A stretch of DNA of 36,073 nt from Myxococcaceae bacterium. GTDB taxonomy: Bacteria; Myxococcota; Myxococcia; Myxococcales; Myxococcaceae. The notes beneath the pieces are model-generated. The model worked only from the letters and a program-made list of their open reading frames with translations. It was not told the DNA's origin and did not search any database. How positions within the stretch are numbered: the stretch's first letter is position 1; each line of letters starts with the position of its first letter. The translations under genes were made by a program, and so were the position numbers. Shown in pieces: positions 5,580-33,579 of this stretch. The DNA lies in contig JADCJJ010000005.1 of the NCBI GenBank assembly GCA_020247085.1, positions 1 to 36,073 of the forward strand, written 5' to 3'.

Positions 5580-6217
5580 CGCCGCTCTCCCACCAGCGTG
5601 AAGCGCACCGCGCAGTCGGCGCAGGCCGGCTCACACTCCGAGTCCGACGCCGCCGGCTCGACGAGGGCCACCGAGAAGCCCAGCTCCCCGCATGCGTACA
5701 GCGCGTCGAAGCCCTCATCGCCCGTCCGCGGCCCGGTGAGGCCGCCGTCTCCGTTTGGCCGGGGCACCCCTCCGTCGAGCGGCGCGGGCGGGCATCGCCG
5801 GCCGACAGCCTCGGACTGAGACAAGCTCAAGAGCGCCACGGTGAGGCGCTCGGTCGCCACCGTCGCCGGGCAGGCCCGGCACGACGGGAAGAGGCGCCGG
5901 GCCGAGGCCACGCTGTCGAGCACCTGCCCGTCCCAGCCGGCGTCGCGGGGGTACCCTCCGCCGAGCGTCAGCCAGGCGGCGCCCGTCTCGGGGTCCCTCG
6001 TGAAGACGGCGTCGAACCGGAACGGCGCCAGCGACACCTCGGGGAGCTCGCACGCTGGACGCCCGTCGGGGCGCAGCTCACCCGCGCCGCCATCTGGCAG
6101 CCCCAGCACCGGCTCGGCCACGAACACCCACGCGCCGAGCGGCTCGCTGCCGGGGGGCGGGGGGAGCGCCGTGCAGCCAGCCACGAGCCCCGCGATGACC
6201 CACGCGCGCCGCATCAC
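5576..6217 (-). CDS. Small Cys-rich predicted lipoprotein, unknown function
   Basis: 213 residues if started at GTG 6217, or one less at ATG 6214; both touch the stop of the upstream TPR gene. The N-terminus ([15 protein letters not shown]) is a lipoprotein signal with lipobox LVAGC and lipidated Cys15. The +2 residue is Thr, with no Asp retention signal, so outer-membrane location is likely. The mature part contains CRAC-type and CEPACADC clusters and Gly/Asp/Pro-rich stretches, and no domain I recognise. Its sandwiched position between the giant TPR protein and queC, with coupled starts on both sides, suggests shared expression with the TPR protein, perhaps as its membrane anchor or partner. 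That is inference only. Confidence 0.75.
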
Positions 6218-9200
6218 CCCGCCGTGAGGCGCTCGAGCGCCGCGTGGGCCACCGCGCGGAAGGCCTCGCTGTCACACAACAACGCCGGCACGTCGACGGC
6301 CCGCACGTCTCCGCCGCGGACGCGCTCGTCGAGGAAGGCCACCACCTTGCCCAGGGCCCGCGACGACGGCATCGCCCGGAAGGCCGTCGCGCAGGCCTCG
6401 GCGAAGTGCGGCACCTCGCCGGGCTCGGCCAGGCGGCGGGCGTCGTCACCGAGCGCCGCCGCGACGGCGATGAGCGACACCAGCTCGGCCGGGCCGAAGA
6501 CCGCCAGCGCCCCGGCGCCGATGACGAGGCGCCGCTCGTCGGCGAACCACGCCTCGACACCTCCGCCGGTGTCGAGCCACACGCCCGGCGCCTCGAGCCC
6601 CAACGCCCGCGTCGCCTCGCTCAACACCTGCCAGAGCCGCGGCATCGAGGTGGCCGTCACGGCGGCGGCCGAGGCAGGCGTCGAGACGTTGGCCGTGAGC
6701 GGCCCGCGCACCACGGCGGTGGGCACCACCATCGGCGCGTGCCCCGGCGTCCCCGACAGCACCGCTCCAAAGCCGTCGGCGAGGCGCGCGTCGGCCTCAC
6801 GGCCGAGCTGCGTCAGCGCCTCGGCGAACATCGTCCACCCATCGGCGTCGGCCACGCCCGCCTCGAGCAACCGGGGCCAGGCCCGCGCCGCCAGCGCCGC
6901 TCCCTGCGCCGTGTTCGACAGCCGCTCCGCGAGCCGGCGCCGCGCCGCCGGGGTGAGCGCGCCCTCGTCGAGCAGCCTCGCCCCGAGGCGCGCCGCGAAG
7001 GGCACCAGCTCGACGTCGAGGTAGCCGAGGAGCACCGCCTCGAGCTCGGCGGGCGTGCTGGCGAGCCGCTCGCGCAGCGGGAGCGCCTCGCCCCGCAGCC
7101 CCAGCCGCTCGAGCAGCCCGGCGCGGCGCGCGAGGCGCTCAGGCGTCTCGTCGAGCGTCGCCAGGGCGCGCACGGCCTCCTTCAGCCGGCCGAGCGCCTC
7201 GTACGCGTCGACGAGTTGCGGCCGCACCGGGTCGAGCGAGGCGTCACCGGCCAGCTCGGCCAGCCGCTCGGCCATCGGCACGAAGCGCTCCGGGTCGCCG
7301 GCGAGCAGGTCGAGGAGCTCGCGCACCGCGGCCACCTGCGTGGCGTCGTCGACGAGCGCCCGCTCGAAGGCGAGGCGGGCCGCGGGCCCGTCGCCGAGGC
7401 GGTGCCGCAGCACCTCGCCGCGCTCGACGTGAAGGGCGGCGCGCGCCTTCGGGTCCTCCTCGAGCGACGCCAACTGCGCGAGCGCCGACGCGGCGTCGGC
7501 CCAGCGCTGGTGCGTCATTCGGAGCGTCGCCACCTCGCGCAGCGCGACCCGCCGACGCTCCGGCACCACGTCGGCCAGGGTGACGAGCAGGCGCTCCCGG
7601 CGCGCGACGTCGACCTGACCGGCGTGCTCGAGGAGCCTGGCGACGGGCCGCGGCGCGCGCGCGTCGAGGGCGGCGTCGAAGGCGGCCGTCAGGCGGCCGC
7701 ACCGCACCAGCGCCGCGAGGGCCTTCGCGTCGTCCGAGGTGACGAAGAGCACGCACCACAGCGGCTCGGCCACGTCCAGCGCCTGCTGCTGCTCCGCGAG
7801 GGCCGCGTAGCGCGCCCGCGCCTCGTCGTCGGCGTCGTCGAGCAGCGCGCGCGCCCTCGCGTCCGCGACGTCGCGCTCGGCCAGGGCCCACCGCGCCGCG
7901 CGCGCCTCGGGCTCAGCCCCGGCGCGCAGAGCGAGGTCCAGGGCCCACCCGGCCTCACCCGCGGCGAGCGCCGCGGAGAACCCCACCTCGACGGCGCGCC
8001 CCGGCGCCCCCAGCGCGAGGAACCGCTCGGCCTGCGCCTGGCGCGTCAGGCGCCCCGGGGCCTCGCGGACGAGGCGCTCCAGCACCTCGAGCGCGGCGCT
8101 CGGCGCGCCGCCACGTGAGGCCGCCTCGACGGCCTCGAGGAGGAGCTCCGGCCGCGCGGCCGCCTCGCCGGCGTCGGCGGCGTGAACGAGGGCCTCGGCC
8201 AGCGCGACGTCGCGCCCGGCCTTGCGGAGCACCTCGAGCAGCATCGCCCAGGCCTCGGACGTGGGGCGCTCGGCCACCGCCTCTCGCAGCACCGCCTCGG
8301 CGCGCGCGAGGGCCCCCCCGCGCACCAGCGCCTGCGCCGCGTCCTGCTGCCGCGCGCTCCGGGCCGCGCCGGTGACGAGCCCTGCTTCGGCCAGCCTCAG
8401 CTCGGCGAGGCCGACGTCGTCACCTCGCGCCTGCGCGAGGCGCACCAGGCCCTCGAGCGCCTGGGCGTAGCCGGCGGCCGACGGGCCAGCGCCCCGAATC
8501 GGCGCGAGCGCCGCGGCCGCCCGATCCAGGTCGCCGCGGGCCTCGAGGGCGCCGGCCAGCTCGAGCGTCGCCGCGGCCTTCGCCGTCTCGTCCAGCGGCG
8601 CCGTGACGAGGCCCTCGAGGGCGCCGATGACGCCCACCTCGTCGGAGCGGCGCCGCGCGTCGTCGAGCAACGCCAGCAGCACCTCGACGTTCGTCGGGTC
8701 GAGCCGCGCCGCCTCCTGCTTGAGCTCCAGCGCCCGCGCCGCCTCCCCCAGCTCGCGCCCGGCCACCTCGCTGGCCGCCAGCAGCGCCAGGGCGCCCCGG
8801 CCTCCGCCGACGGCCTTCGCGAAGCGCTCGTGCAGCCCCAGCACGTCGCCGAGCCGCCCGCGCGCGCGGTACGCCCGAACGCCGACGTCATACAGGTCGG
8901 CGTCCGCCGGGTGCCTCGGCAACAACACCTCGAGGGCCTCGATGGCCTCTTCGGGGCGCTCCCGCAGCGCGAGGGCGCGGCGGTACTGCGCCTCGGCGTC
9001 GGCAGGGCCCGCCAGGCGCGCGAGCCGAAGCACGGTGCGGTACTGGCCCTCGACGTCGGCGAGGCGGCCGTAGGCCTCGTCGAGCGACGAGAGCACCTCG
9101 AGCCCTCGTGGGCCGTCGGGGTCGATGGCGAAGGCCGCCTCGAAGGCGTCGACGGCGTCGCGGAAGGCGCTCGACTCCATGGCGGCCTGCCCGAGGCGGA

Positions 9201-12200
9201 GCCACAGACGCAGGCGCAGCGCGCCGCTCAGGCCGTCGCCACCGAGGGTGACCAGCCGCCGGTCGTACGGCTGCGAGGCCCGCGCGCCGCCGCCCTGGGC
9301 CGCGAGCTCGCCGCGGCGCTCGAGCGCCTCGAGGTCGTCTGGAGCGGCGGTGAGGGCGTCGTCCCAGGCGGCGGCGGCAAGAAGCGTCTCGCGCGCCGCC
9401 TCGAGCGCCTCGGCGCGGCGCTTGAGCAGCACGCTCGCCTCGCCCGGCACCGCCCGCGCCCGCGCCGCCAGCACGTCGGCGCGGCGCCGGGGGTCGTCGG
9501 CCGTCTGGGCGAGGAGCGCCTTGAAGGCCTCCTGGCTCTGCGGCGACGCCTCGAAGGCCTGCGCCTCGCACACCCGGGCGCGCTCGCTGGCGCCGGCACG
9601 GTGGAAGGCCGCCGCCGCCTCGAGCCAGCGCGCCGCGGCGACGTCGCCCTGCTCCTGCTCGGCGCGGCCGCTCAGCAGGTGCGCCAGGCCCTGCTCGTCG
9701 CCGGTGTCGGCAAGAAAGGCGCGGTGGCGCTCGAAGACGGGGTGCAGCGGCGCCTTCTCGAGCAGCAGCGCGTCGAAGTCGGCCGCGTCCTGGCGGCGGC
9801 CGAGCTCCCAGAGCTGGTCGGCCACCCGCTGCGTGAGGCGGTCGTCGTCAGGGCTCGAGGCCCGCGCCGCCAGCAGCGCCGCCGCCGCCTCGTGCGGGCG
9901 CCCCGCCCTGTCCTTGTAGAGGGCGGCGGCCTTCAGCAGCTGCTCGGCCCTTCGGGCGCCGCTCGGCTCGCGGGCCGCGGCGGCCTCGTAGAAGGCCGCG
10001 ACGTCGGCGACGCGGTCCTGGCGCTCGTACAGCGCCAGCAGCATCGCCTCGGCCTCGGCGTCGGCCGGCGCCAGAGCGAGCGCCTGCTGCAGCGCCGCCT
10101 CGGCTTGGTCCGGCGCGAGCAGCGCGGCGGTGCCCACCTCGGCGGCGCTCCCCTGCGACGGCAGGCCCAGGTGCAGCCGCGCGAGCGTGACGAAGGCGCG
10201 GGCCCGCTCCGCCGGCGGCAGGCCGGCGAGCGTCCGCTCGAGCCACTCGACCTCGGCGTCGCGGTCACCCCGCCGGCGCGCGAGCTCGATGGCCATCTGC
10301 GCGAAGGCCGGCTGGGGGGCCAGGGCCCAGGCGCGCTCGAGGGCGTCGGCGGCGTCGTCGAGGTCGAGGCGGGCGTCGCGCAGCAGCTCGGCGCGGCGCA
10401 GCATGGCCGCGGCGGCATCGGCGGCGCGCCCCTCGTCCTCACAGACGTCGGCGATGGCCGCCAGCGAGCGCAGGGCGTCGTCGGTGCGGCCGAGGCCCTC
10501 GGCGAGGCGCGCCTCTTCGCCCCAGGCCGCCAGCGCCGCGTCGACGTCACCGGCGGTGAGCTCGAGCTGCGCAATCTCGACCAGCTCCTCCATCAGCGCC
10601 GCGGGCCGCCCGGCGTCGCGCAACATCGCCGCCGCCTCGCGGCGGATGGCGAGGGGCGCGTCGTGCCGCGCGGCGGCGAGCTGGAAGAGCCGCAGCGCGA
10701 GCTCGACGTCGGGCGGCGGCGAGAGCGCCTCTCTGGCCAGCAGCACCAGCCGGTCGGCGGTGCGGGCGCTGGCCGACAGCTGCTCGAGGTGGCGGGCGCG
10801 AAGGTCGATGGAGGCGCGCCGCTCGCCCCGCGCGGCGAAGATTGCGGCGAGCCGCTCGACGGCCTGGGTGAGCAGCGGCCGCTCGGCCACCAGCCGGCGC
10901 AGCGTCGCTTCGGCCACCGCCTGGTCGCCGAGCTGCTCGGCGAGGTCTGCCAGCCGCAGGAGCGCACGCTCGGCGTCGTCCGGACGGTCCTCGAAGGAGA
11001 CGGCGGCGGCGAGGGCCTGCTGCAGCGGCAACGCCTCGGCGAAGGCGCCCTCGAGGAAGAGGGCGTCGGCCAGCGCCTCGAGGTCGGCGCCCGTCGCCGG
11101 TGCCAGCTGGTGAGCGCGGCGCAGCAGTCGCAGCGCCCCCTCGTCGTCGCCGGCCTGCCGCGCCAGGGCCGCCGCGCGCCGCAACACGAGCGCGCCCTCG
11201 GCCGGGGCCACGAGGGCCGACACCGCTTCGAGGAGCTCCACGGCCTCGCCCAGCCGACCCTGGCGCTCGAGCAGCCCGGCCAGGCGCTCCCGGGCGCCCG
11301 CCTCGCGCGGGTCGAGCGCGACGAGCCGGCGCAGCGCCGCCTCGCCGGGGCCGGGCAGCGACAGCCGGTCGAGGTACAACGCCGCCAGCTCGGCGTAGAG
11401 CGGCGCCGCCTTCGCGCGCGGCGTCTGCGTCACCTCGGCGGTGAGCAGCTCGGCCAGCCCTGCCCAGTTCGACAGCGCGCGCAGCGAGCGCTTGAGACCG
11501 TCGGCGGCGACCGGGTGCCGCGGGGCCATCGAGAGGGCCGCCTCGAAGGCGACGGCCGCCTCCTGCGTCGCGCCGCGCCCCTCGAGCAGCCCGGCGCGCT
11601 CGAGCAGCGCCTCGACGCGCTTCTGCACCGGGCCCTGCCTCGAGGCCTCGAGCAGCGCCCCTTCGGCGCGCAGCGGCGCCGAAAGGCGCGCCGCCTGCGA
11701 CAGCCCGTACCAGGCGTCGAAGCGCTCCGCGGCCGGGAGCGGCAGCGTGACGAGCAGCTCGAAGGCCTCGAGCGCGCGCGACGCCTCGCCCGCGGCGGCG
11801 CGCCCCCGCGCGATGGCGCCGACGCGGCCCGCGACGGCCGCGAGCGTTTCGGCGTCCTGCGGGGCGGCTGCGAGCACCAGGCGCAGCGCCCCGAGCTCGG
11901 CCGCCTCGTCGAGCGACTGCCGCGCCAGCTCGGCGAGCTGCTGCAGCAGCGGCAGCGGACGGGACGAGGCCTGGGCCGCGTCGAGCAGGTCGGCGCGGGC
12001 TGCCACCAGGTTGCCGACGAGCCGGTGCAGCTCGGCGCGGCGGGCCAGCAGCTCGGCGCGCGCCTCGCCGCGGGCGCTCCCCACCAGGCGGCCCAGCAGG
12101 TCGAGCCGCTCTGCGGTCGTGGTGTCGTCGACGGGCACCAGCGCCAGCAGCCGGCTCGCGGCCCACTCGTCGTCGGGCACGTCCACCAGGATGCTGCGCA

Positions 12201-15200
12201 GCACGTCCATCGCGGCGCCGGTACGGCCCAGGGCGAGCGCGCCCTCGGCGTACTCCCGGCGGGCCGAGGTGCGCCCGGTCCCCTCGAGGCGGGGCCACAG
12301 CTCGCCGAGCAGGTCGACGAGCGGCTCGAGGGCTCCGGCGCGGCGGTGCAGCTTCACCAGCTCGAGCTGCGCTTCGAGGTCTTCGGGCCGCTGCGCGACG
12401 TACCTGCCGAGGAGCCGCCGGGCGGCGTCGGCGTGACCCGACTTGAGCGCCGCGAAGGCCGCGCGGCGCGTCAGCGCCACCCGGTCGAGCTGCAGCGCGG
12501 CGACGTCGGCGTCGCTGTCGTCGGCGCCGAGCACCACCTCGAGGTCGACCATGGCCTCGCGGGGGTTCGTCAGCTCGGCCAGCTCGGCGCGCCGGAGCCT
12601 CGCGGGCGCGAACGCCGGCGCCACCTCGAGGGCCTGAGCCAGCAGCGGGCCCTCGCGCGGCGTGTCGCGCACCAGCGTCGCGGCGCGGAAGAGGAAGCGG
12701 GCGGCCTCGGCCGCCTCCTTCGCCACCTGGGCGCGCCGGGCGTACAGCCGCGAGGCCTCGACGGCTCCGCCGCGGTCGAGCTCGAGCTTCGCCATCGCCT
12801 CGAGCACCTCGCGGGCGCTGTCTCCGGTGGGCGAGGCGTCGAGCGCAGCGGTGAGGCGCAGCATCGCGCCCGAGGCGTCGCCCTGGGCGAGCTGCGCCTG
12901 GGCCGCCTTGTAGAAGAGCGGCGCGGCGTCGTGCGCGCGGCCGGCCTGGAGCAACGCCTGGGCCCGCGAAGCCCACAGGTCGGTCAGCTCTCGGCCGAGC
13001 CGCGCCTCGACGTAGAGCGCCTCGAGGCGCCCGGCCAGCTCGTCGTCGAGGCGCCGCAGCGGGAAGGCGAGCGCGTAGTTCTCGCGCGCCGCGTCCTTGT
13101 CACCGAGCAGCTCGCAGGCCCGGCCCAGGCGGGCGCGCACCTCGGCGAGCTTCTCGGGCGGGGCGTGCCGGGGCAGCAGCGCCAGGGTGTCTTCGAGGGC
13201 CCGACGCGCGTTCGGCGCGCGCTCGAGGCGAAGGCAGAGGGTCGCCAGCTCGAGGAGCGCGTTGGCGTCGGGGTGCAGCCGGGCGGCCTTCTCGAGCGCC
13301 ACGAGCGCCTCGCCAGCGCGGCCCAGGCGCACGTCGAGGACCTGCCCGAGCTCACGCAGCGCCGCCGCGGCGAGCCGCTTGTCACCGGCCGACTCGGCCG
13401 CCCGCGCCCGCTGCTCGAGCGCCCACGCCAGGCCCCCCATGTCGCTGCGGCGCCGCTCGAGGGCGGCGAGCTCTCCGAGCACCGGCAGGTCGTCGGGCTC
13501 GACGCGCAGCACCTCGCGGTAGGCGTGGACGGCCAGGTCGAGGTCGAAGGCGAGGTCGCGCGCGGCCACCGCGAGCCGGCGGTGGAAGCGCACGCGCTCC
13601 TTCGGCTCGGCCGTCAGCTCGGCGAGCGCGCGCAGGGCCCGGCACAGCAGCGGCCCGTCGCGGCGGCTCTCGGCCAGGGCGAGGCTGCCCTCGAGCGCGA
13701 GACGGTTCTTCGGGTCGGCCTCGAGCGCCTGCGTAAGCAGCCGCTCCGCGCGCTCCGGCTGCCCGAGGCGCCCGCGGTAGAGCTCCCCCGCCTCGGCCCA
13801 CAGCGCCGCGCGGCGGGCGGGCTCGTCGATGACCGCCGCTGCCTTCTCGCAAGCGTCGGCGAGCTCGACGGACTTGCCCGCGGCGCGGAAGTACGGGAGC
13901 AGCTCGTCGAGGGCGACGGCGTCGGTCGGGTCGAGGGCCAGCGCCGCCTCGAGGTGCTCCCGCGCGCGGGCCGGCTCTCCCAGCTTCGTCTTCAGCAGCC
14001 GCGCGAGGGCGCGGTGTGACTGGTGGGCGGCCTCGCGCATCGCCGGCGCGGCCGGTGACGGGCCGGCGAGCTCGATGGCCTGCTGGTAGCCGGCGACGGC
14101 CTCTTGCACCTTGCCGAGGGCCTCGCAGACGCGGGCGGCGAGGGCGAGCGGCTCGGCGTCTCCGGGCAACAGCGAGGCGGCCTCGCGGTAGCGGAGCAGC
14201 GCGTTCTCGGGCTGCCCCAGCCCCGCCTCCCACACCCTCCCGGCCAGCAGGTTGGCGCGCCCGATGCGGTCGACCTCGTGGCGGCCCAGCGCCACCTCCC
14301 GGAGCCGGTCGAGCGCCTTGATGGCGCGCAGGTGCTCGCCGGAGCGGTGGCACAGCGACCCGAGCTGCATCAGCGCCTCGGGGTGGTCGGGCGCGAGCCG
14401 CAGCGCGGCCTCGCAGTGCAGGCGGGCGCCGGCGAGGTCGTCTTCGGTCTCGGCGCACAGCCGGGCGAGCTGCACGTGCGCGTCGGCGGCCTCGGCGGGC
14501 TCCCGGGCGAGCGCCGCCAGGCGGCGGTAGGCGCGGATGGCGCCGGCGCGGTCCTTCGCCTGGTCCGAGGCGCGGGCGAGGGCCTTGAGCGAGGGCAGGT
14601 GGTCGGGCTTGAGGCCCAGCATCTCGTGCAGCGCGCGCACGGCCATCTGCGGCGCGGCGTCGCGGGACGAGCGGGCGGCGGCCTCGGCGGCGAAGAAGGC
14701 CCCCGCCTCTTCCTGGTGCCTCCGGGCGTGGTTGCAGAGCGCGAGGAAGCGCTCCGAGGCGCGGGCGAACTCCCCGCGGCGCTCCCGCACCACGGCCTCG
14801 GCCCACAGCGCCGTCGCCGAGCGCTCGCGGCGGCGGGCGAGCGAGGCCGCGACGTCGAGCGCCAGCTCATGGGCCTGCGGGTCGGCGACCAGCAGCGTCA
14901 GCAGCCGCTCGACGGCGAAGGGGTGCGCCTCGACGGCGTCGCCGAGCCGCAGGTAGGCCTGCCGCGCCTCGACGAGCTGCCCCTGCGCGACGAGCTCCTC
15001 GGCGTCGGCGAAGGCGCGGGCGCCCTCGAGCGTCAGCAGCAGGTCCTCGTCGAAGGCCGCCGGCGGCGGCAGCCCACCGGACGAGAAGCGAAGCCGCAGC
15101 CCCTTCGACGACACGACCGCCTCGGAGAGGCGCGCCTGGTCGAGGGTGGGCATCTTGTAGCCCCGGCCCACGGCGGCCTGCTCGACGAGCGGCGGCAGCA

Positions 15201-15750
15201 GCCTCGAGGTGAAGCCGTTGGCCCCACGGCGCTCGACGTCGGGGAGCACGCCCAGCGTCCGCAGCGCCTCGGCGACCAGCGCCGGCACACGCGCCGCCGG
15301 CGTGGTACTGAAGGCGTAGAAGCGCACGTCGTAGAAGTAGACGGCCAGCTGGTCCTGGTCGCCGTCGAAGGCCACCTTGAAGGTGACCGGCGCGCGCTCG
15401 GGCCCACGCAGGCGGGCCTGCACCTCGAGCGCCCCCGGGCGGAAGTGGAGCCTGACGTCGTCGAGCTCGGGCACCTTGCCGGCCACCGCCTGGGCGGCGC
15501 GCTGAATGACCTCGGCCGACACCGACACCTCGAGCAGGCCGAAGTCGAGCTTCTTCTTCTGGTACTTCGCCGCGCCGCCCGAGACGTTGAGCGGGAAGGT
15601 GACGTCGGGAATCGACAGGGCGAAGTCGACGAGCTCGACCCCCGGCGAGAGCGTCAGCGGCGGAAAGCCGACGAACGCCCGGCGGTCGAGCAGCCGAAGC
15701 TCGGGGCCCGGAATGCGGGCGCTCGTCGATGTGGAGTCTCTCTCGGCCAT
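6214..15750 (-). CDS. Giant tetratricopeptide-repeat protein (3178 residues)
   Basis: The largest gene of the window. Residues 1 to about 230 form a mixed, strand-rich N-terminal domain without a signal peptide. It contains alternating hydrophobic segments such as [14 protein letters not shown] and [13 protein letters not shown] and might be a lipid-binding-like fold. From about 240 to 3030 the sequence is almost entirely helical TPR/TPR-like repeats (typical: [37 protein letters not shown]). The last 130 residues form a compact non-repeat domain ([19 protein letters not shown]) seen, as far as I recall, in other large myxobacterial TPR proteins; no peptidase HExxH is present. Such superhelices act as protein-binding scaffolds. 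The partner is unknown; the coupled downstream lipoprotein is a candidate. Translation is uninterrupted over 9.5 kb. A 5.8-kb open frame on the opposite strand is a compositional shadow. Confidence 0.9.
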
Positions 15751-18047: not shown

Positions 18048-18095
18048 GCGGTGAGGAACGTTGTCATCGTCGGGGCGGCGGCTAACGTGTGGGGC

Positions 18096-20936
18096 GTGCG
18101 CACACTCGCCTGCGTCCTCGCGGTCGCCCTCGCGCCCGTCGCCCGGGCCGACAACGCCGCTGACGAAGCCGACCTGGCCTTCTCGCGGGGGGTGCAGGCG
18201 TACGGGCGGCACGACTACGAGCAGGCGCTGTCGAGCTACTTCCTGTCGTACCGGCTGGTGCCCAACCGCAACGTGCTGTTCAACATCGCCCGCTGCTACG
18301 AGGCCCTGAGCCGCTCCGACGAGGCCTACCGCTACTGGCACGACCTGTTCGTCGACCCGACGCTCCCCGCCGGGGACCGCAAGGAGGTGAAGGCCGCGCT
18401 GGAGCGCCTCGGGCCGCAGGTGGCCCTGGTGACGGTGACGACGAGTGGCGGCGCCGGAGAGGTCTTCATCGACCGGGAGGACCTGGGCAGCCGCGGCCGC
18501 ACGCCCCAGACGGTGGCGGTGAGGCCGGGCCCCCACACGGTGCTGGTGAAGGCGAGCGGCTTCCGCCCCGCGCAGGCGGCGGTGACGGCGACCCGCGGCC
18601 GCGAAGCGAAGGTCGCCCTCGAGCTCTTGCCCATCGTCGGCACGGTGGAGTTCACCGGTACGCCCCCCGGCGCCGAGGTGCGAGAGAGCGCCGACGGCCC
18701 GGTGGTGGCGACGGTGCCCTCGACGCTGGCGGCGTCACCGGGGCAGCACCTGTACCTGGTGCAGGCGCCGGGGCACCTGCCGCAGCAGGTGCTGGTCGAC
18801 GTGAAGGCCGAGGCGACCGTCACCGCCACCGTCGCGCTGCCGGACAAGCCGCGCCCGACCGGGAAGGTCATCGTCACCGCCAACCGCGAGGCGGCGCTGG
18901 TGCGCGTCGACGGGAAGGATTCGGGCTTCACCCCGGTGGTGCTGACGCTCGCCGAGGGGCGGCATGCGCTCGAGGTGACGAGCGCCGACGTCGCGCCGCT
19001 GACGCAGACGCTCGACGTCGTCGCCGACCAGGAGCAGCGGGTGTCGGCCGACCTCCGCTACGCGCCTCCCCGGGTCACCGCGGCGAGCAAGCAGCTGCTG
19101 TCGCTCGACCAGGCGCCGGCGTCGGTCACCGTCATCACGCGCGAAGAGATTGCCGCCTTCGGCTACCAGACGTTGCCTGAGGCGCTGCGGGCGGTGCGCG
19201 GGCTCTTCTTCACCGACGACCGCATCTACACGTACATCGGCATTCGCGGGTTCGCGCCGCCGGGCGACCTCAACACGCGCATCCTCATCTTGTACGACGG
19301 GCACCCGGTCAACGACGTCTGGGCCGGCCAGGGCTTCTCGGCGCGGGACCTCGACGTCGACCTGGCCGAGGTCGACCGCATCGAGGTGGTGCGCGGTCCG
19401 GCGTCGCTGCTCTTCGGCACCGGCGCCTTCTTCGGCGTCATCAACGTCGTGCCGCGCGACCGCGTCGGCGAGGACAAGCACGTCGAGGGCGTGGTGGGCG
19501 CGGGCGGCCCGGGCGGGGTGAAGGCGCGCGCCACCGGCAGCCTGGGCACCGACGAGGCCTCGGTGCTGCTGTCGGCGGCCGGCTACACGGCGACGGGCGC
19601 CGAGCTGACCGACCTGGGGGCGGCGGGCGTCGTGCGGGGCCTCGACGACGAGCGCGCCCTCGGCGCGACGGCGCGCGCGAAGTGGAAGGGCTTCACCCTG
19701 TCGTCGAAGTGGAACCAGCGGCGCAAGCAGGTGCCGACCGGGCCGCTCGGCTCGCAGCTCGGCGTGCCAGGCACGGTGTACACCGACGCCCGCGGCTTCG
19801 CCGAGCTGCGCTTCGACCACGCCTTCTCACGTGTCGCCCTCTCGGCGCGGGCGGCCTACGACGGATCGAGGTACCGCGGGCTGTACGCCTCGCTCGACGC
19901 GAACGGAGACGCCTTTCGCACCACCGACACCGGCGGCGGCGACTGGGCGGTGGCCGAGGTGCGCGCGGGCATCTCGCTCTTCGAGGGCAACCGCCTCACC
20001 GTCGGCGTCGAGGGCCAGGCGCAGCTCGTCTACCAGCAGCCGGTGCAGGCCGACGTCAGCCGGACCACGCGCTTCCTGGTATCGGGCACGCTCTTCGACG
20101 AGTGGCAGATGCTGGGAGGCCGCCTCTTCCTGCAGGCCGGCGTGCGCGTCGACAAGTACAACGACCTGGCCGAGTTCGCGCTGTCGCCCCGGGCGGCGGT
20201 GGTAGCGCGGTTCTACCAGGCGGGGCTCACCAAGCTCGTCGCGGGCCGCGCGTTTCGCGCGCCGACCATCTACGAGCTGTACTTCAACGACGGCGGGGCG
20301 ACGCAGACGGCGCCGCCGCCGGGCACGCTGACGCCCGAGTACATCACCACCTTCGAGCTCGAGCACTCGCACGACCTGACGCCCGAGCTGCGAGCCACGG
20401 TGGGCGGCTACTACAACCTCATCGACCGGCTGGTGGTGCTCTCGGAGGAGGCGCTCGACACGCCGCGGTGCGGCCAGGGCACGGCGCAGTGCTTCGTCTA
20501 CCGGAACAAGACGCGCGGCCTGACCGCGCTGGGCGCCGAGGCGCAGCTCCGCTGGCAGCCCGGGCGCTTCACCCTCATCGAAGGGATGTACTCGTTCGTG
20601 ATGCTGGGCGGGCCCGGCGTGAGCGACGCGCCCTCGTACCCGACGCACCTCGCCTCGGCGCGCGCGATGTTGCCGCTCAAGCAGGGCCTGGTGCGGCTGT
20701 CGGCCCAGGCGACGTACCAGTCGGGCCGCCTCGACCGGGACACCGGCGGGAGCGTCGGCGAGGCGCTGTTGCTCAACGTGGGGCTGTCGGGCGAGTACGG
20801 GCCGCTGCGCTACTTCGCCGGCGTCAACAACCTGCTCGACGCGCGCGTGGTGCTCCCGGTGGTGAGCGAGGTGGGCGCCAGCCAGATTCCCCAGTACGGG
20901 CGCACCTTCTGGCTCGAGGCGTCGACGCGCTTCTAG
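18096..20936 (+). CDS. TonB-dependent outer-membrane receptor with N-terminal TPR-like and PEGA-like domains
   Basis: 946 residues from GTG 18096, chosen because it opens a compact signal peptide (MRTLACVLAVALAPVARA, cleavage near 18); a GTG at 18051 would add 15 residues. After the signal come a TPR-like segment (about 20-85, FSRGVQAYGRHDYEQALSSY), then three PEGA-like beta modules (about 108-178, 180-248, 255-322) of the type VDGKDSGFTPVVLTLAEGRH. The TonB plug follows (about 335-445, APASVTVITREEIAAFGYQTL and VDRIEVVRGPASLLFGTGAFFGVINVV), then a 22-strand-type barrel ending in aromatic Phe. Such receptors import siderophores, B12, glycans or other large ligands using ExbB-ExbD-TonB. The periplasmic TPR/PEGA front end is unusual and could bind peptidoglycan or a periplasmic partner. 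The ligand is not inferable. Confidence 0.92.
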   Translation: MRTLACVLAVALAPVARADNAADEADLAFSRGVQAYGRHDYEQALSSYFLSYRLVPNRNVLFNIARCYEALSRSDEAYRYWHDLFVDPTLPAGDRKEVKAALERLGPQVALVTVTTSGGAGEVFIDREDLGSRGRTPQTVAVRPGPHTVLVKASGFRPAQAAVTATRGREAKVALELLPIVGTVEFTGTPPGAEVRESADGPVVATVPSTLAASPGQHLYLVQAPGHLPQQVLVDVKAEATVTATVALPDKPRPTGKVIVTANREAALVRVDGKDSGFTPVVLTLAEGRHALEVTSADVAPLTQTLDVVADQEQRVSADLRYAPPRVTAASKQLLSLDQAPASVTVITREEIAAFGYQTLPEALRAVRGLFFTDDRIYTYIGIRGFAPPGDLNTRILILYDGHPVNDVWAGQGFSARDLDVDLAEVDRIEVVRGPASLLFGTGAFFGVINVVPRDRVGEDKHVEGVVGAGGPGGVKARATGSLGTDEASVLLSAAGYTATGAELTDLGAAGVVRGLDDERALGATARAKWKGFTLSSKWNQRRKQVPTGPLGSQLGVPGTVYTDARGFAELRFDHAFSRVALSARAAYDGSRYRGLYASLDANGDAFRTTDTGGGDWAVAEVRAGISLFEGNRLTVGVEGQAQLVYQQPVQADVSRTTRFLVSGTLFDEWQMLGGRLFLQAGVRVDKYNDLAEFALSPRAAVVARFYQAGLTKLVAGRAFRAPTIYELYFNDGGATQTAPPPGTLTPEYITTFELEHSHDLTPELRATVGGYYNLIDRLVVLSEEALDTPRCGQGTAQCFVYRNKTRGLTALGAEAQLRWQPGRFTLIEGMYSFVMLGGPGVSDAPSYPTHLASARAMLPLKQGLVRLSAQATYQSGRLDRDTGGSVGEALLLNVGLSGEYGPLRYFAGVNNLLDARVVLPVVSEVGASQIPQYGRTFWLEASTRF

Positions 20937-30063: not shown

Positions 30064-33000
30064 GTGGCTGCGCCCATGGCCCCGCCGATTCTCCTCGTCG
30101 CCGACGACCTCTCGACCATCGCCGCGGTGAAGCGGGCGCTGGGGCGCGAGGGCTACGAGGTGATTCTGGCCACCAGCGCCGCCGACGCCATCATCGCCTG
30201 GGGGCACCACCTGCCCGGGCTGGTGGTGCTGCAGCCGTCGGTGGAGTCGGACCGGGGCGCGGTGGTGCTCGAGGAGCTGCGGCACCAGCCGGAGGCGCAG
30301 CTGCTGCGGGTGGTGCTGCTCGGCGAGGCGGTGCCCGGGTTCGGCTACCACGTCGAGCCGCTCCCGCTCGACGCGGCGCGCTTCACCAGGGCGGTCGAGG
30401 AGAACGTGCGCGCGGCCGAGGTGCCGCAGGACTGGACGGTGTCGGAGCCGGCCAGCGCCGCCGGGGCCCCGCCCGCCCCCCCGAGGCTCGACGACGCGGA
30501 GCCCTGGCGGGCGACGAGCCCTTCGGCCGTGACCCGCGGCGGGCCCGCGGCGACTTCGCCCGCCGCTCCGCAGGAGCGCACGTCGGCGTCACCCTCGGTG
30601 ATGGTGCGGCTCTTCGGTGACCTGCCGAGCCTCGAAGACGCCATGCACCGCGACGTCGAGGCGCAGCTGCGCGCGTCGCTCGAGTCGACGCTCCCGCCGT
30701 TCGCGGCGAGCGCCGCAGAGCTCGAGCAGGTCGAGGCCGAGGCGCGCGCCGAGGCGGCCCGGCGGCAGGGCCAGCTCGAGCCGCTGAAGCCGACCATCAC
30801 CCCGCCGCCCATCGCGCCCGTCTCGCGCCAGCGTGACGTCACGTCGTTCGGCGGTCCGGGCGACGACGCCGCGGGGCCCGGCAGGGACGAGCGGGCCGCC
30901 TTCGCCGAGGCCGCCGGCGCCGCGGCCTTCGACGAGACGTCCTTCGCCGGCCTCGAGACATCGTCGTCCGACGGAGACGACGGAGCGGCCTTCGACGAGA
31001 CGTCCTTCGCCGGCCTCGAGAAGACCCCACCTGGCGGGGGCCGCGCCCTGCCGACCGACGACGGCGCCCTCCCCCCACCCTCGCCAGACGCGACGCCGCC
31101 CGACGCGCGCGGGGGCTCCGCAGAGGGCGACGCCGCGACCGCCTCGGGCGAGGACACGCTGCCGCCGCTCCCACCCCAGCGCGAGACGAAGGGCGACGAA
31201 GCGGGCCCCGGAGAGTGGCCCCGAGCCGGCCTCTCCAGAGGCACGGGCGACGCGACCCAGGCCGTCGAGGTGCTCGCGCGGGCCGAGGCCATCGCGCACC
31301 AGGGCCGGTCCACCGCGCTGGCGCTCCGCGAGGCGCTCGACGCCGAGGCCAGGGCGCTGCGGCGCGAGGCCGAAGAGGCCCGGGCCGAAGCGCGGCGCGA
31401 GCGCGAGGCCCGAGCCGACGCCGAGGCCAGGGTGGCGAAGTCTTCCGCCGACCTCGACGCGGCGATGGCGCTCGCGGCCGAGGTCGAGGCGGCCCTGACG
31501 GGCGCCCGGGTCGAGCTCGAGGCGACGCAGACCGACTTGTCCGACGCCCGCCGGGCGCTCGGGGCCCAGGCGCAGCGCGGCGACGCCGAGCGCGTCTCGA
31601 GCGCGCGCCTCGTTGAACTCGAGGCCACCGTCAAGGAGCTCGAGGCGAGACGCGAGGCAGACGCCGAGGCGCTCGAGCGCCTCGCCGGGCAGCGCGTGGT
31701 GGCCGAGCGAGCCCTCGCCGACGCCACCCGGCGCGAGAACGACGCCACCGAGCGCCTCGCCGAGCAGCGCGCGTCGGCCGAGCGCGCCCTCGCTGAAGCC
31801 ACCCGGCGCCTCGCGGAGCAGCGCGAATCGACCGAGCGGGCACTCGCCGACGCCGCCCGGCACGAGGCCGAGCGCGAGGCGCTCCTCGCCGACCTCGCGG
31901 CGGCCGAAGAGCGCGCTCGGGACGCCTCGGCGCAGCGCGACGCGCTCGAGCAGGCGCGGGCGTCGCTCGAGGCCGGGCTCGTCGAGCTCCGCGAGCGGCT
32001 CTCGACCTCGGCCGAGAAGGAGCGCGCCCAGGCTGCGCAGCTCGATGACGAGCGTCTCGCGCGGCTCGGCGTCGAGGAGCAGCGAGACGAGCTCTCCGAG
32101 CAGGTGACCGCGGCGAGCACCAGGGAGCAGCAGGCGCGCGCCGACGTGGACGCGGCGCTGAAGCTCGCCGGAGAGCTCGAGGTCGCCCTGGCGAAGGCGC
32201 GGAGCGAGCTGACCGCGACCAGGGAGGCGCTCGAGCGCGCTGACGCCGCGCACGCCCGGCTCGAGGGCACCGTCGAGGAGGAGCGCCGCCGGCTCGACGC
32301 CAGGCTCGACTCGCTCGAGGCGGAGCGCCTCGCCACCGCCGAGGCACACCGCGCGGCGCTCGAGGCGCTCCAGGCGCGGCTCGATGCCACGGCGGCGCGC
32401 GGCCGGGCGCTCGATGCGGACCTCGGCGCGGCGCGTGACGCCCTCGAGGCGCAGCGAGCGCGGGCGGACGAGGCCGAGGCGCTGGCGCAGTTGCTCGGTG
32501 AGCGCCTGAAGGCGCTCGAGCATCGCCAGGTGATGAACCTCGCGCTCCCCGGGCGGCGGGCGCTGGGTGTTCCCCGCAACGGCACCGTCTCGCTGGAGCA
32601 GCTCGCCGGCCTCGTCGCCACCCTCGTCGCGACCGAGGCCGACGTGCGGCTCGAGCTCGGCGTGCGCGGCGGCACCCGCACCCTGTGGTTCAAGCGCGGC
32701 GCGCTCCACGGCGCCGAGTCGTCGTTCGACCACGAGTCCCTCGTCGACCGCGCCCGCCGCGACGGGCTCATCGACGCGCGCCAGGAGGCCGACCTGCGGC
32801 TCCTGCGGACGGCCACCACCTCGGAGCAACTCGAGGCGATGAAGGGGCGCGGCTTTCTGCGCGAGGTCGAGACGGTGCCCTTGCTGCAGCGGGCGACCGA
32901 GCACATCGCGCTCGAGGCCTTCGGCGAGGAGTCGACGCAGTACCGGCTCTCCGACGAGCCCCCCTCGACGAGCGTGCTGCTGGTCGCCGTGCCGCGGGCG

Positions 33001-33579
33001 ACGCTGCCGCTGGTGGCCGAGGCGCTCCGACGCGCCGTGCCCGCAGACACCCTGCTGGAGCGGCTCGGCGGCGCCGAGGCGGTGTGCGTGCCGACCGACA
33101 GCGCGCTCGACCTGCGCGCCCTGGGCTTCACGGACCGCGAGCGCAAGATGCTCTCGTGGGCCGACGGCGAGGCCACCGTCGAAGACCTGGCGCTGGCCTC
33201 GGGGCTCAAGAGCGAGGCCTCGTTCCGGGCTCTGCTGGTGGCGCGGCTGCTCGGCGTCATCGAGGTGCGGCCCCCTGCGAAGCCGACGCCCGCCCCCTCT
33301 GGAGACCTCGACGTGCGGCGCCTCGAGGCGAAGTACGACGAGGTGCAAGACGCCGACTACTTCACCATTCTGGGGCTGACGCGCGGGGCCTCGGGTGACG
33401 AGGTGGAGCGCGCCTATCGCCGCCTCAGCGAGGAGTTCGACCCCCTGAAGTACTCGGGGCACCCCGACGCCTCGCTCCAGCAGCGGGCGCAGGTGGTCTC
33501 GTCGCTCCTCGAAGAGGCCGCGCGCGCCCTCGAGGACGAGCGCCGAAGGGTCGAGTACGCGCGGCACCTGCTCGACTGA
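30064..33579 (+). CDS. Pseudo-receiver / coiled-coil / DUF4388-like / J-like domain scaffold protein
   Basis: 1171 residues from GTG 30064 (ATG 30076 is an alternative). Residues 8-115 form a CheY-like receiver (ILLVADDLSTIAAVKRALGR), but the phospho-acceptor Asp is replaced by Gln57 (LVVLQPSVES), so it probably cannot be phosphorylated. Residues 120-395 are Pro/Ala/acidic and disordered, with a duplicated AAFDETSFAGLE. A long Ala/Glu/Arg coiled coil spans about 398-818. A DUF4388/PATAN-like region (about 820-1080) is followed by a J-domain-like end (1090-1171, YFTILGLTRGASGDEVERAYRRL). In that end the HPD that stimulates Hsp70 is replaced by DPL. Myxobacteria have families of such receiver-DUF4388 proteins in motility and polarity control. 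This one looks like a structural adaptor. It begins 43 bases after priA. Confidence 0.82.
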   Translation: MAAPMAPPILLVADDLSTIAAVKRALGREGYEVILATSAADAIIAWGHHLPGLVVLQPSVESDRGAVVLEELRHQPEAQLLRVVLLGEAVPGFGYHVEPLPLDAARFTRAVEENVRAAEVPQDWTVSEPASAAGAPPAPPRLDDAEPWRATSPSAVTRGGPAATSPAAPQERTSASPSVMVRLFGDLPSLEDAMHRDVEAQLRASLESTLPPFAASAAELEQVEAEARAEAARRQGQLEPLKPTITPPPIAPVSRQRDVTSFGGPGDDAAGPGRDERAAFAEAAGAAAFDETSFAGLETSSSDGDDGAAFDETSFAGLEKTPPGGGRALPTDDGALPPPSPDATPPDARGGSAEGDAATASGEDTLPPLPPQRETKGDEAGPGEWPRAGLSRGTGDATQAVEVLARAEAIAHQGRSTALALREALDAEARALRREAEEARAEARREREARADAEARVAKSSADLDAAMALAAEVEAALTGARVELEATQTDLSDARRALGAQAQRGDAERVSSARLVELEATVKELEARREADAEALERLAGQRVVAERALADATRRENDATERLAEQRASAERALAEATRRLAEQRESTERALADAARHEAEREALLADLAAAEERARDASAQRDALEQARASLEAGLVELRERLSTSAEKERAQAAQLDDERLARLGVEEQRDELSEQVTAASTREQQARADVDAALKLAGELEVALAKARSELTATREALERADAAHARLEGTVEEERRRLDARLDSLEAERLATAEAHRAALEALQARLDATAARGRALDADLGAARDALEAQRARADEAEALAQLLGERLKALEHRQVMNLALPGRRALGVPRNGTVSLEQLAGLVATLVATEADVRLELGVRGGTRTLWFKRGALHGAESSFDHESLVDRARRDGLIDARQEADLRLLRTATTSEQLEAMKGRGFLREVETVPLLQRATEHIALEAFGEESTQYRLSDEPPSTSVLLVAVPRATLPLVAEALRRAVPADTLLERLGGAEAVCVPTDSALDLRALGFTDRERKMLSWADGEATVEDLALASGLKSEASFRALLVARLLGVIEVRPPAKPTPAPSGDLDVRRLEAKYDEVQDADYFTILGLTRGASGDEVERAYRRLSEEFDPLKYSGHPDASLQQRAQVVSSLLEEAARALEDERRRVEYARHLLD
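30922..31021 (+). repeat. 63-bp-period in-frame duplication in the disordered segment
   Basis: A stretch of about 37 bases encoding AAFDETSFAGLE occurs at 30922-30958 and again at 30985-31021, nearly identical, 63 bases apart. It sits in the disordered region of the scaffold protein and could be a duplicated short linear binding motif. Confidence 0.8.

Follow-up and report, generated by a model that had tools for sequence, protein, structure and literature searches.

A double pseudo-domain coiled-coil protein of Myxococcaceae with a conserved, rewritten J-domain loop

A 36,073-nucleotide stretch of a Myxococcaceae bacterium genome (GenBank assembly GCA_020247085.1, contig JADCJJ010000005.1; hereafter the window) encodes a protein in which an N-terminal receiver domain and a C-terminal J domain have both lost key residues. 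This double pseudo-domain protein is real and vertically inherited; the double-loss state is not a matter of chance, since the orthologous family has inherited it throughout. On balance, we consider the protein somewhat more probably than otherwise to be a phosphorylation-independent, cytoplasmic and probably multimeric coiled-coil scaffold, the J loop of which has been re-used in Myxococcaceae. Both pseudo-receiver coiled-coil proteins and pseudo-J proteins are known already, and what is new is a variant of these. No paper on this gene was found among the literature matches listed. The features of the gene are collected in Table 1.

Table 1. Positions in the window of the gene and of the parts of its product, with the basis of each assignment.
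Feature	Positions	Strand	Basis
Whole gene, likely ATG start (ORF from GTG at 30064)	30076..33579	+	
Domain order: pseudo-receiver, linker, coiled coil, DUF4388-winged helix, pseudo-J	30076..33579	+	
Pseudo-receiver without helix alpha-4 (aa 5-119)	30076..30420	+	Pfam, alignment with intact paralogue, AF2 model, fold search
Gln57, phospho-acceptor column	30232..30234	+	Alignment of 53 distinct full-length orthologues
WRATSP short motif, disordered linker	30505..30522	+	Related motif in orthologues
LFGDL short motif, disordered linker	30610..30624	+	LF[GN][DE][LMP] in orthologues
Coiled coil, Pro-free run with heptad periodicity (aa 387-828)	31222..32547	+	Periodicity test
DUF4388-like domain (aa 842-990)	32587..33033	+	Pfam, AF2 model
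Winged-helix-like part (aa about 993-1072)	33040..33279	+	Structure search
Pseudo-J domain (aa 1097-1167)	33352..33564	+	Pfam, AF2 model, structure search
Rewritten apical loop EFDPLKYSGHPD, DPL instead of HPD, plus conserved GHxD	33433..33468	+	Conservation analysis

The reading frame is open over 30064..33579 on the forward strand (1171 codons counted from the GTG), and third-position GC lies between 0.88 and 0.97 in every 300-base block across it. As the ATG at 30076 falls in the alignment column of the orthologues' first Met, the mature protein is probably 1167 amino acids long, with Gln57 becoming Gln53 in ATG numbering; residue numbers given here are counted from the GTG unless stated. 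Pfam matches were read against cut-offs of 30.2 bits for Response_reg (PF00072), 25 bits for DUF4388 (PF14332) and 27.8 bits for DnaJ.

In the window, priA, the gene and def are close neighbours with the same orientation, and a syntenic orthologue (priA–X–def) was present in Myxococcaceae and in four other families of the order. Across 89 orthologue loci (43 + 46, duplicates kept in), def was found downstream on the same strand in 84 and priA upstream on the same strand in 58, sometimes several kb off. Loci without priA were mostly at a contig or locus edge; L046, L053, L081, L086 and L090 had no priA despite enough room upstream. One locus, L031, had neither priA nor def in the stretch examined and is possibly an additional copy in genome G010. 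Searching with the C-terminal 339 amino acids gave some match in 60 of 60 related genomes (E <= 0.001), many of these being J paralogues only, and a profile search at E <= 1e-25 gave matches in 129 of the 145 genomes of the order, with rows weaker than about 1e-41 being mostly paralogues. A further 46 loci were added after 33 weak J-only rows had been set aside, and these included Myxococcus, Corallococcus, Archangium, Pyxidicoccus and M. xanthus AM003 (L117). No link of the gene to a named M. xanthus locus was found, the L117 gene being cut at its 5' end by a contig edge, and a plasmid search with the C-terminal domain gave no match. One family of the set, f1, was taken as Myxococcaceae and is so called below.

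For the receiver, Response_reg was matched at residues 9–85 below the cut-off (E 1.5e-4, 22.4 bits). Alignment with an intact paralogue receiver placed Gln57 in the phospho-acceptor column, and the loss of the acceptor Asp claimed by the first-pass annotation was borne out. In the 53 distinct orthologues, target included, this column holds Ala (39), Gln (10), Ser (3) or Gly (1) and never Asp; adding five further order-level receivers inspected by eye (Ala, Ala, Gly, Ala and Ser) brings the count to 58 of 58 readable orthologues without the acceptor Asp. Receivers truncated at a contig end do not enter these counts. In the same 53 sequences the DD1 column reads His 37, Ala 11 and others 5 (Ala in the target), the T/S column Gly 45 and Ser 8 (Gly87), the Lys column Leu 46, Arg 4 and others 3 (Leu100), and the DD2 column Asp throughout, so that four of the five receiver catalytic residues are gone in the target and the DD2 Asp alone is kept. 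The domain is a pseudo-receiver, with the receiver fold and without its catalytic residues, and judged by those residues it is unable to accept phosphate by known chemistry. An alignment gap of about 10 residues relative to the intact paralogue falls on helix alpha-4, and an AlphaFold2 model (34 sequences, pLDDT 92.6) shows a 9-residue loop and no helix between beta-4 and beta-5. The model aligned with DivK over 114 residues (Z 18.2, rmsd 1.8), a match tied with many others. Retention of both folds had been proposed previously; this held for the J domain (below), whereas the receiver fold is incompletely kept, as its helix alpha-4 segment is missing.

Two short patterns stand out in the linker. 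Both were picked after the sequences had been inspected, and compared with shuffles that ignore kinship, LF[GN][DE][LMP] occurs in 38 of 58 orthologues against 0.07 expected and W[RHQ][AVTS][TSPQA]xP in 33 of 58 against 0.5 expected. Outside Myxococcaceae, LFGDL was seen in L035, L037, L039 and L040; it was absent from the f5 sequences examined. The Pro-free run that follows is 442 residues long with a hydrophobic period of 3.5, and the power at this period was reached in 0 of 300 shuffles with LIVMFY as the hydrophobic set and in 16 of 300 when Ala was counted as hydrophobic. Full-length orthologues range from 538 to 2333 amino acids. Beyond the coiled coil, the DUF4388 match of the target is weak (15.4 bits, under the cut-off); four orthologues gave 52.5 (L043), 41.6 (L035), 33.0 (L039) and 22.1 bits (L066), the last also under 25. 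A structure search with the C-terminal model gave no clear match for the DUF4388 part, the rows covering mainly model residues 260–339, and residues 161–239 matched GATOR1 and SEA-complex chains at borderline level (Z up to 8.3). DUF4388 is a domain which we take to be PATAN. PATAN/DUF4388 response regulators such as PixE, PixG and LsiR share with the present protein a DUF4388-like and a receiver-like domain, but their CheY-like receivers are working ones, in contrast to the pseudo-receiver here.

At the C terminus, DnaJ (PF00226) was matched at residues 1098–1165 above the cut-off (E 3.7e-7, 30.6 bits). J helices I to IV are present in the C-terminal model (28 sequences, pLDDT 91.1), which aligned with a Plasmodium J domain over 70 residues (Z 10.2, rmsd 2.0). 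DPL at residues 1126–1128 occupies the HPD columns, as the first-pass annotation had read it, and the domain is a pseudo-J of type IV, recognisable as a J domain with a non-conservative HPD change. Among 70 distinct orthologues (90 minus 20 that share their last 118 amino acids with another), the HPD columns read HPL in 37, DPL in 13, DPI in 6, HPD, NPL and HPM in 2 each and eight other forms once. When 13 order-level sequences were added to the 70, HPD was kept in 3 of 83 orthologues, these being 0 of 62 in Myxococcaceae and 3 of 21 outside.

Relaxed decay would make both domains dead remnants and leave only the coiled coil and the DUF4388 part to matter. The receiver acceptor does drift among Ala, Gln, Ser and Gly, and among the 21 order-level orthologues outside Myxococcaceae there are 16 different forms of the HPD triplet, with the loop (residues 1124–1135) more variable than other J positions (1.72 vs 1.04 bits). 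In the 62 Myxococcaceae sequences, however, the loop is among the most conserved parts of the J domain, with a mean entropy of 0.52 bits vs 0.93 for other J positions. The relationships among these sequences are closer than in the order-level set, and the comparison was controlled by the other J positions and by thinning: at 80, 75 and 70% identity, which leaves 12–21 Myxococcaceae sequences, the loop still ranked first of 62 windows for the contrast between Myxococcaceae and the rest. The conserved form is x-P-[LIMV]-[RK]-[FYW]-x-G-H-x-D, with Pro1127 and Gly1132 in 62 of 62, His1133 and Asp1135 in 61 of 62, and Leu, Ile, Met or Val at the third HPD position in 61 of 62. Decay is also opposed by the invariant DD2 Asp of the receiver. 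The HPD loop, free to decay elsewhere, is frozen in Myxococcaceae, which argues for re-use, and we regard relaxed decay of the two domains as unlikely. The preserved new motif suggests that the loop is part of the scaffold in this family, but its conservation could also reflect folding needs.

The order of the two losses was read from a FastTree tree of 69 sequences, with the root assumed on eight order-level members; L036, a 122-amino acid fragment, was left out, and for L034 and L042 the start of the C-terminal part was extended manually. Receivers without Asp lie on either side of the root, and the J triplet varies among the tips. One protein, L039, combines a Ser acceptor with an intact HPD, and the two losses are therefore separable. 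The distribution of residues on the tree makes it likely that receiver loss is older than J loss. A coordinated loss of both sites, as proposed in the first-pass annotation, is not supported, in view of L039 and of a receiver change found on both sides of the root (no Asp in any readable orthologue) set against lineage-dependent, tip-level J erosion. By our reading, HPD was lost at least five times if only losses are allowed, and one loss with two regains is shorter if reversals are allowed. The HPD-bearing L201 is nearly identical to relatives with HPE and may have regained HPD by reversal.

Other J domains of the same genomes mostly keep the motif: HPD is intact in 9 of 11 in the window's genome, 12 of 14 in G028 and 9 of 11 in G045 (30 of 36 across the three), where L181 and L190 are partial matches covering the motif. 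The six without HPD are the three orthologues plus L162, L180 and L185, a second J family grouped by eye. In the window's genome, paralogue L164 combines receiver, DUF4388, J and TPR domains that each score above their Pfam cut-offs, and none of its DD, D, S, K and HPD residues has been lost. L164 shares the order receiver, DUF4388, J with the present protein but differs from it in these intact residues, in its terminal TPR and in having no long coiled coil seen. The genome thus holds active J paralogues of the same DUF4388-J layout, with which a regulatory pseudo-J domain might pair or compete in the style of Pam16/Pam18, or it might recruit DnaK without stimulation. A review gives Pam16 as a precedent for a pseudo-J domain, along with DNAJB13 (HPL), a component of the ciliary radial spoke (PMC13254874), and TbPam18 offers a further parallel (PMC11349236). 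DNAJB13 and Pam16 likewise have a J fold with a non-conservative HPD change, and HPL is the commonest form here too, but the present protein is bacterial, is fused to a pseudo-receiver and has a conserved GHxD and a hydrophobic third position. Helix II of the target keeps its basic residues in part (Arg1116, Arg1119 and Arg1120), and with the J match above the Pfam cut-off this makes a weak Hsp70 contact possible; according to the same review, Hsc70 can be stimulated by a designed J analogue that lacks HPD (PMC13254874). Against a regulatory role of this kind stands the almost invariant Glu1124 (61 of 62 in Myxococcaceae) in helix II just before the loop, and we hold such a role to be improbable.

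A polar motility regulator of the FrzS/AglZ type was likewise considered. In Myxococcus xanthus these proteins have an N-terminal receiver without acceptor Asp followed by a long coiled coil; the present protein has both parts, with a DUF4388-winged helix-J end added. FrzS has Ala53 in place of the acceptor Asp and requires His92 and Tyr102 of its alpha4-beta5-alpha5 face (PMC1974792), and its pseudo-receiver binds SgmX (PMC12632262, PMC11580455). Published work also ties a cyanobacterial PATAN domain to PilB1 (PMC7690835) and places PATAN genes near mglA/mglB in some genomes (PMC4316618), which would favour a motility role. However, FrzS keeps alpha-4, whereas here the helix is absent and the switch-aromatic position (K-3) is Val, and a receiver without alpha-4 must use a binding mode different from that of FrzS. 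FrzS was only one of many equal Foldseek matches of the receiver model. Co-occurrence was also examined as a clue to a type IV pilus link, and the idea was rejected: PilT is present in 143 of the 145 genomes of the order, which makes its co-occurrence uninformative, and G144 has an orthologue without a PilT match. The analogy with pole-localised motility proteins drawn in the first-pass annotation therefore holds for the layout but is weak, and we consider a regulator of this type quite improbable.

That the GHPD at residues 1132–1135, seven residues downstream and absent from the first-pass annotation, is a relocated Hsp70 motif is very improbable: G-H-x-D is nearly invariant in Myxococcaceae, but the Pro of GHPD is replaced in 5 of the 62 sequences, the canonical HPD position is the end of helix II, and in the alignment GHPD lies opposite GLDDP of the HPD-bearing L038, in the helix III N-cap column, with helix III of the model starting directly after it.

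The lost acceptor, the kept DD2 Asp, the absent alpha-4, the frozen loop, the intact J fold, the intact paralogue and the conserved priA–X–def arrangement together suggest a scaffold. In such a coiled-coil scaffold, the N-terminal receiver would serve as a fixed protein-binding module for which, from its lost residues, Asp phosphorylation could not act as a switch any more. The disordered linker would carry short docking motifs, a role proposed from their conservation, and the coiled coil, by its heptads and length variation, may set reach and drive self-association. At the far end, the DUF4388/winged-helix unit and the J fold, both predicted, would form a second binding head. There the Myxococcaceae J loop, which would contact Hsp70, has been rewritten to the motif given above and is now strongly constrained; it may bind a new non-Hsp70 partner, or a J or J-like partner without stimulation of the Hsp70 ATPase, a role that we liken to that of DNAJB13.

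Whether deviations from HPD are accidental or selected is called "enigmatic" in a 2026 review (PMC13254874). One syntenic orthologue offers a natural comparison: the loop decays freely elsewhere and is frozen in Myxococcaceae, and the intact paralogue serves as a control. We tentatively propose, as a possibility, that in Myxococcaceae a dead J loop has been re-engineered as a docking motif for a putative partner, with a switch-less receiver at the other end of the rod. If true, a J loop would have been positively re-used, and not decayed, in a bacterium that still holds the same domain set intact.

In the same genome, all active-site residues were found intact in a paralogue of the pseudo-receiver/pseudo-J gene, locus L164 (G000:C620), in which the domains are ordered Receiver-DUF4388-J-TPR. 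A DUF4388-J-TPR-like protein (L165, G000:C396) carries the sequence SLADSLFDDV in its linker, which resembles the target family's LFGDL motif. For the target itself, residues 161–239 of the predicted C-terminal structure (model m61a56658a236), corresponding to the winged-helix part, resemble part of the GATOR1/SEA complex subunits, with borderline Z values of up to 8.3.

HPD was also absent from another J-domain family, grouped by eye, in 3/3 genomes (L162, G000:C321; L180, G028; L185, G045), where it is replaced by the triplets ADD, SPD, and GPG. In L162, the J domain is N-terminal and is followed by a long Ala/Pro-rich stretch.

Repeat in the target linker and other genes of the window
Feature	Position	Strand	Description
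Exact repeat AAFDETSFAGLE	30922-30957 and 30985-31020		two copies, disordered linker of target
3178-aa protein	6214-15750	(-)	many TPR-type repeats
TonB-dependent receptor	18051-20936	(+)	two PEGA domain matches in front

Record BNCN01000002.1 (L113), titled Comamonas sp. KCTC 72670, holds a copy of the target gene of the typical Myxococcus kind, flanked by priA and def, and its organism label therefore looks wrong.
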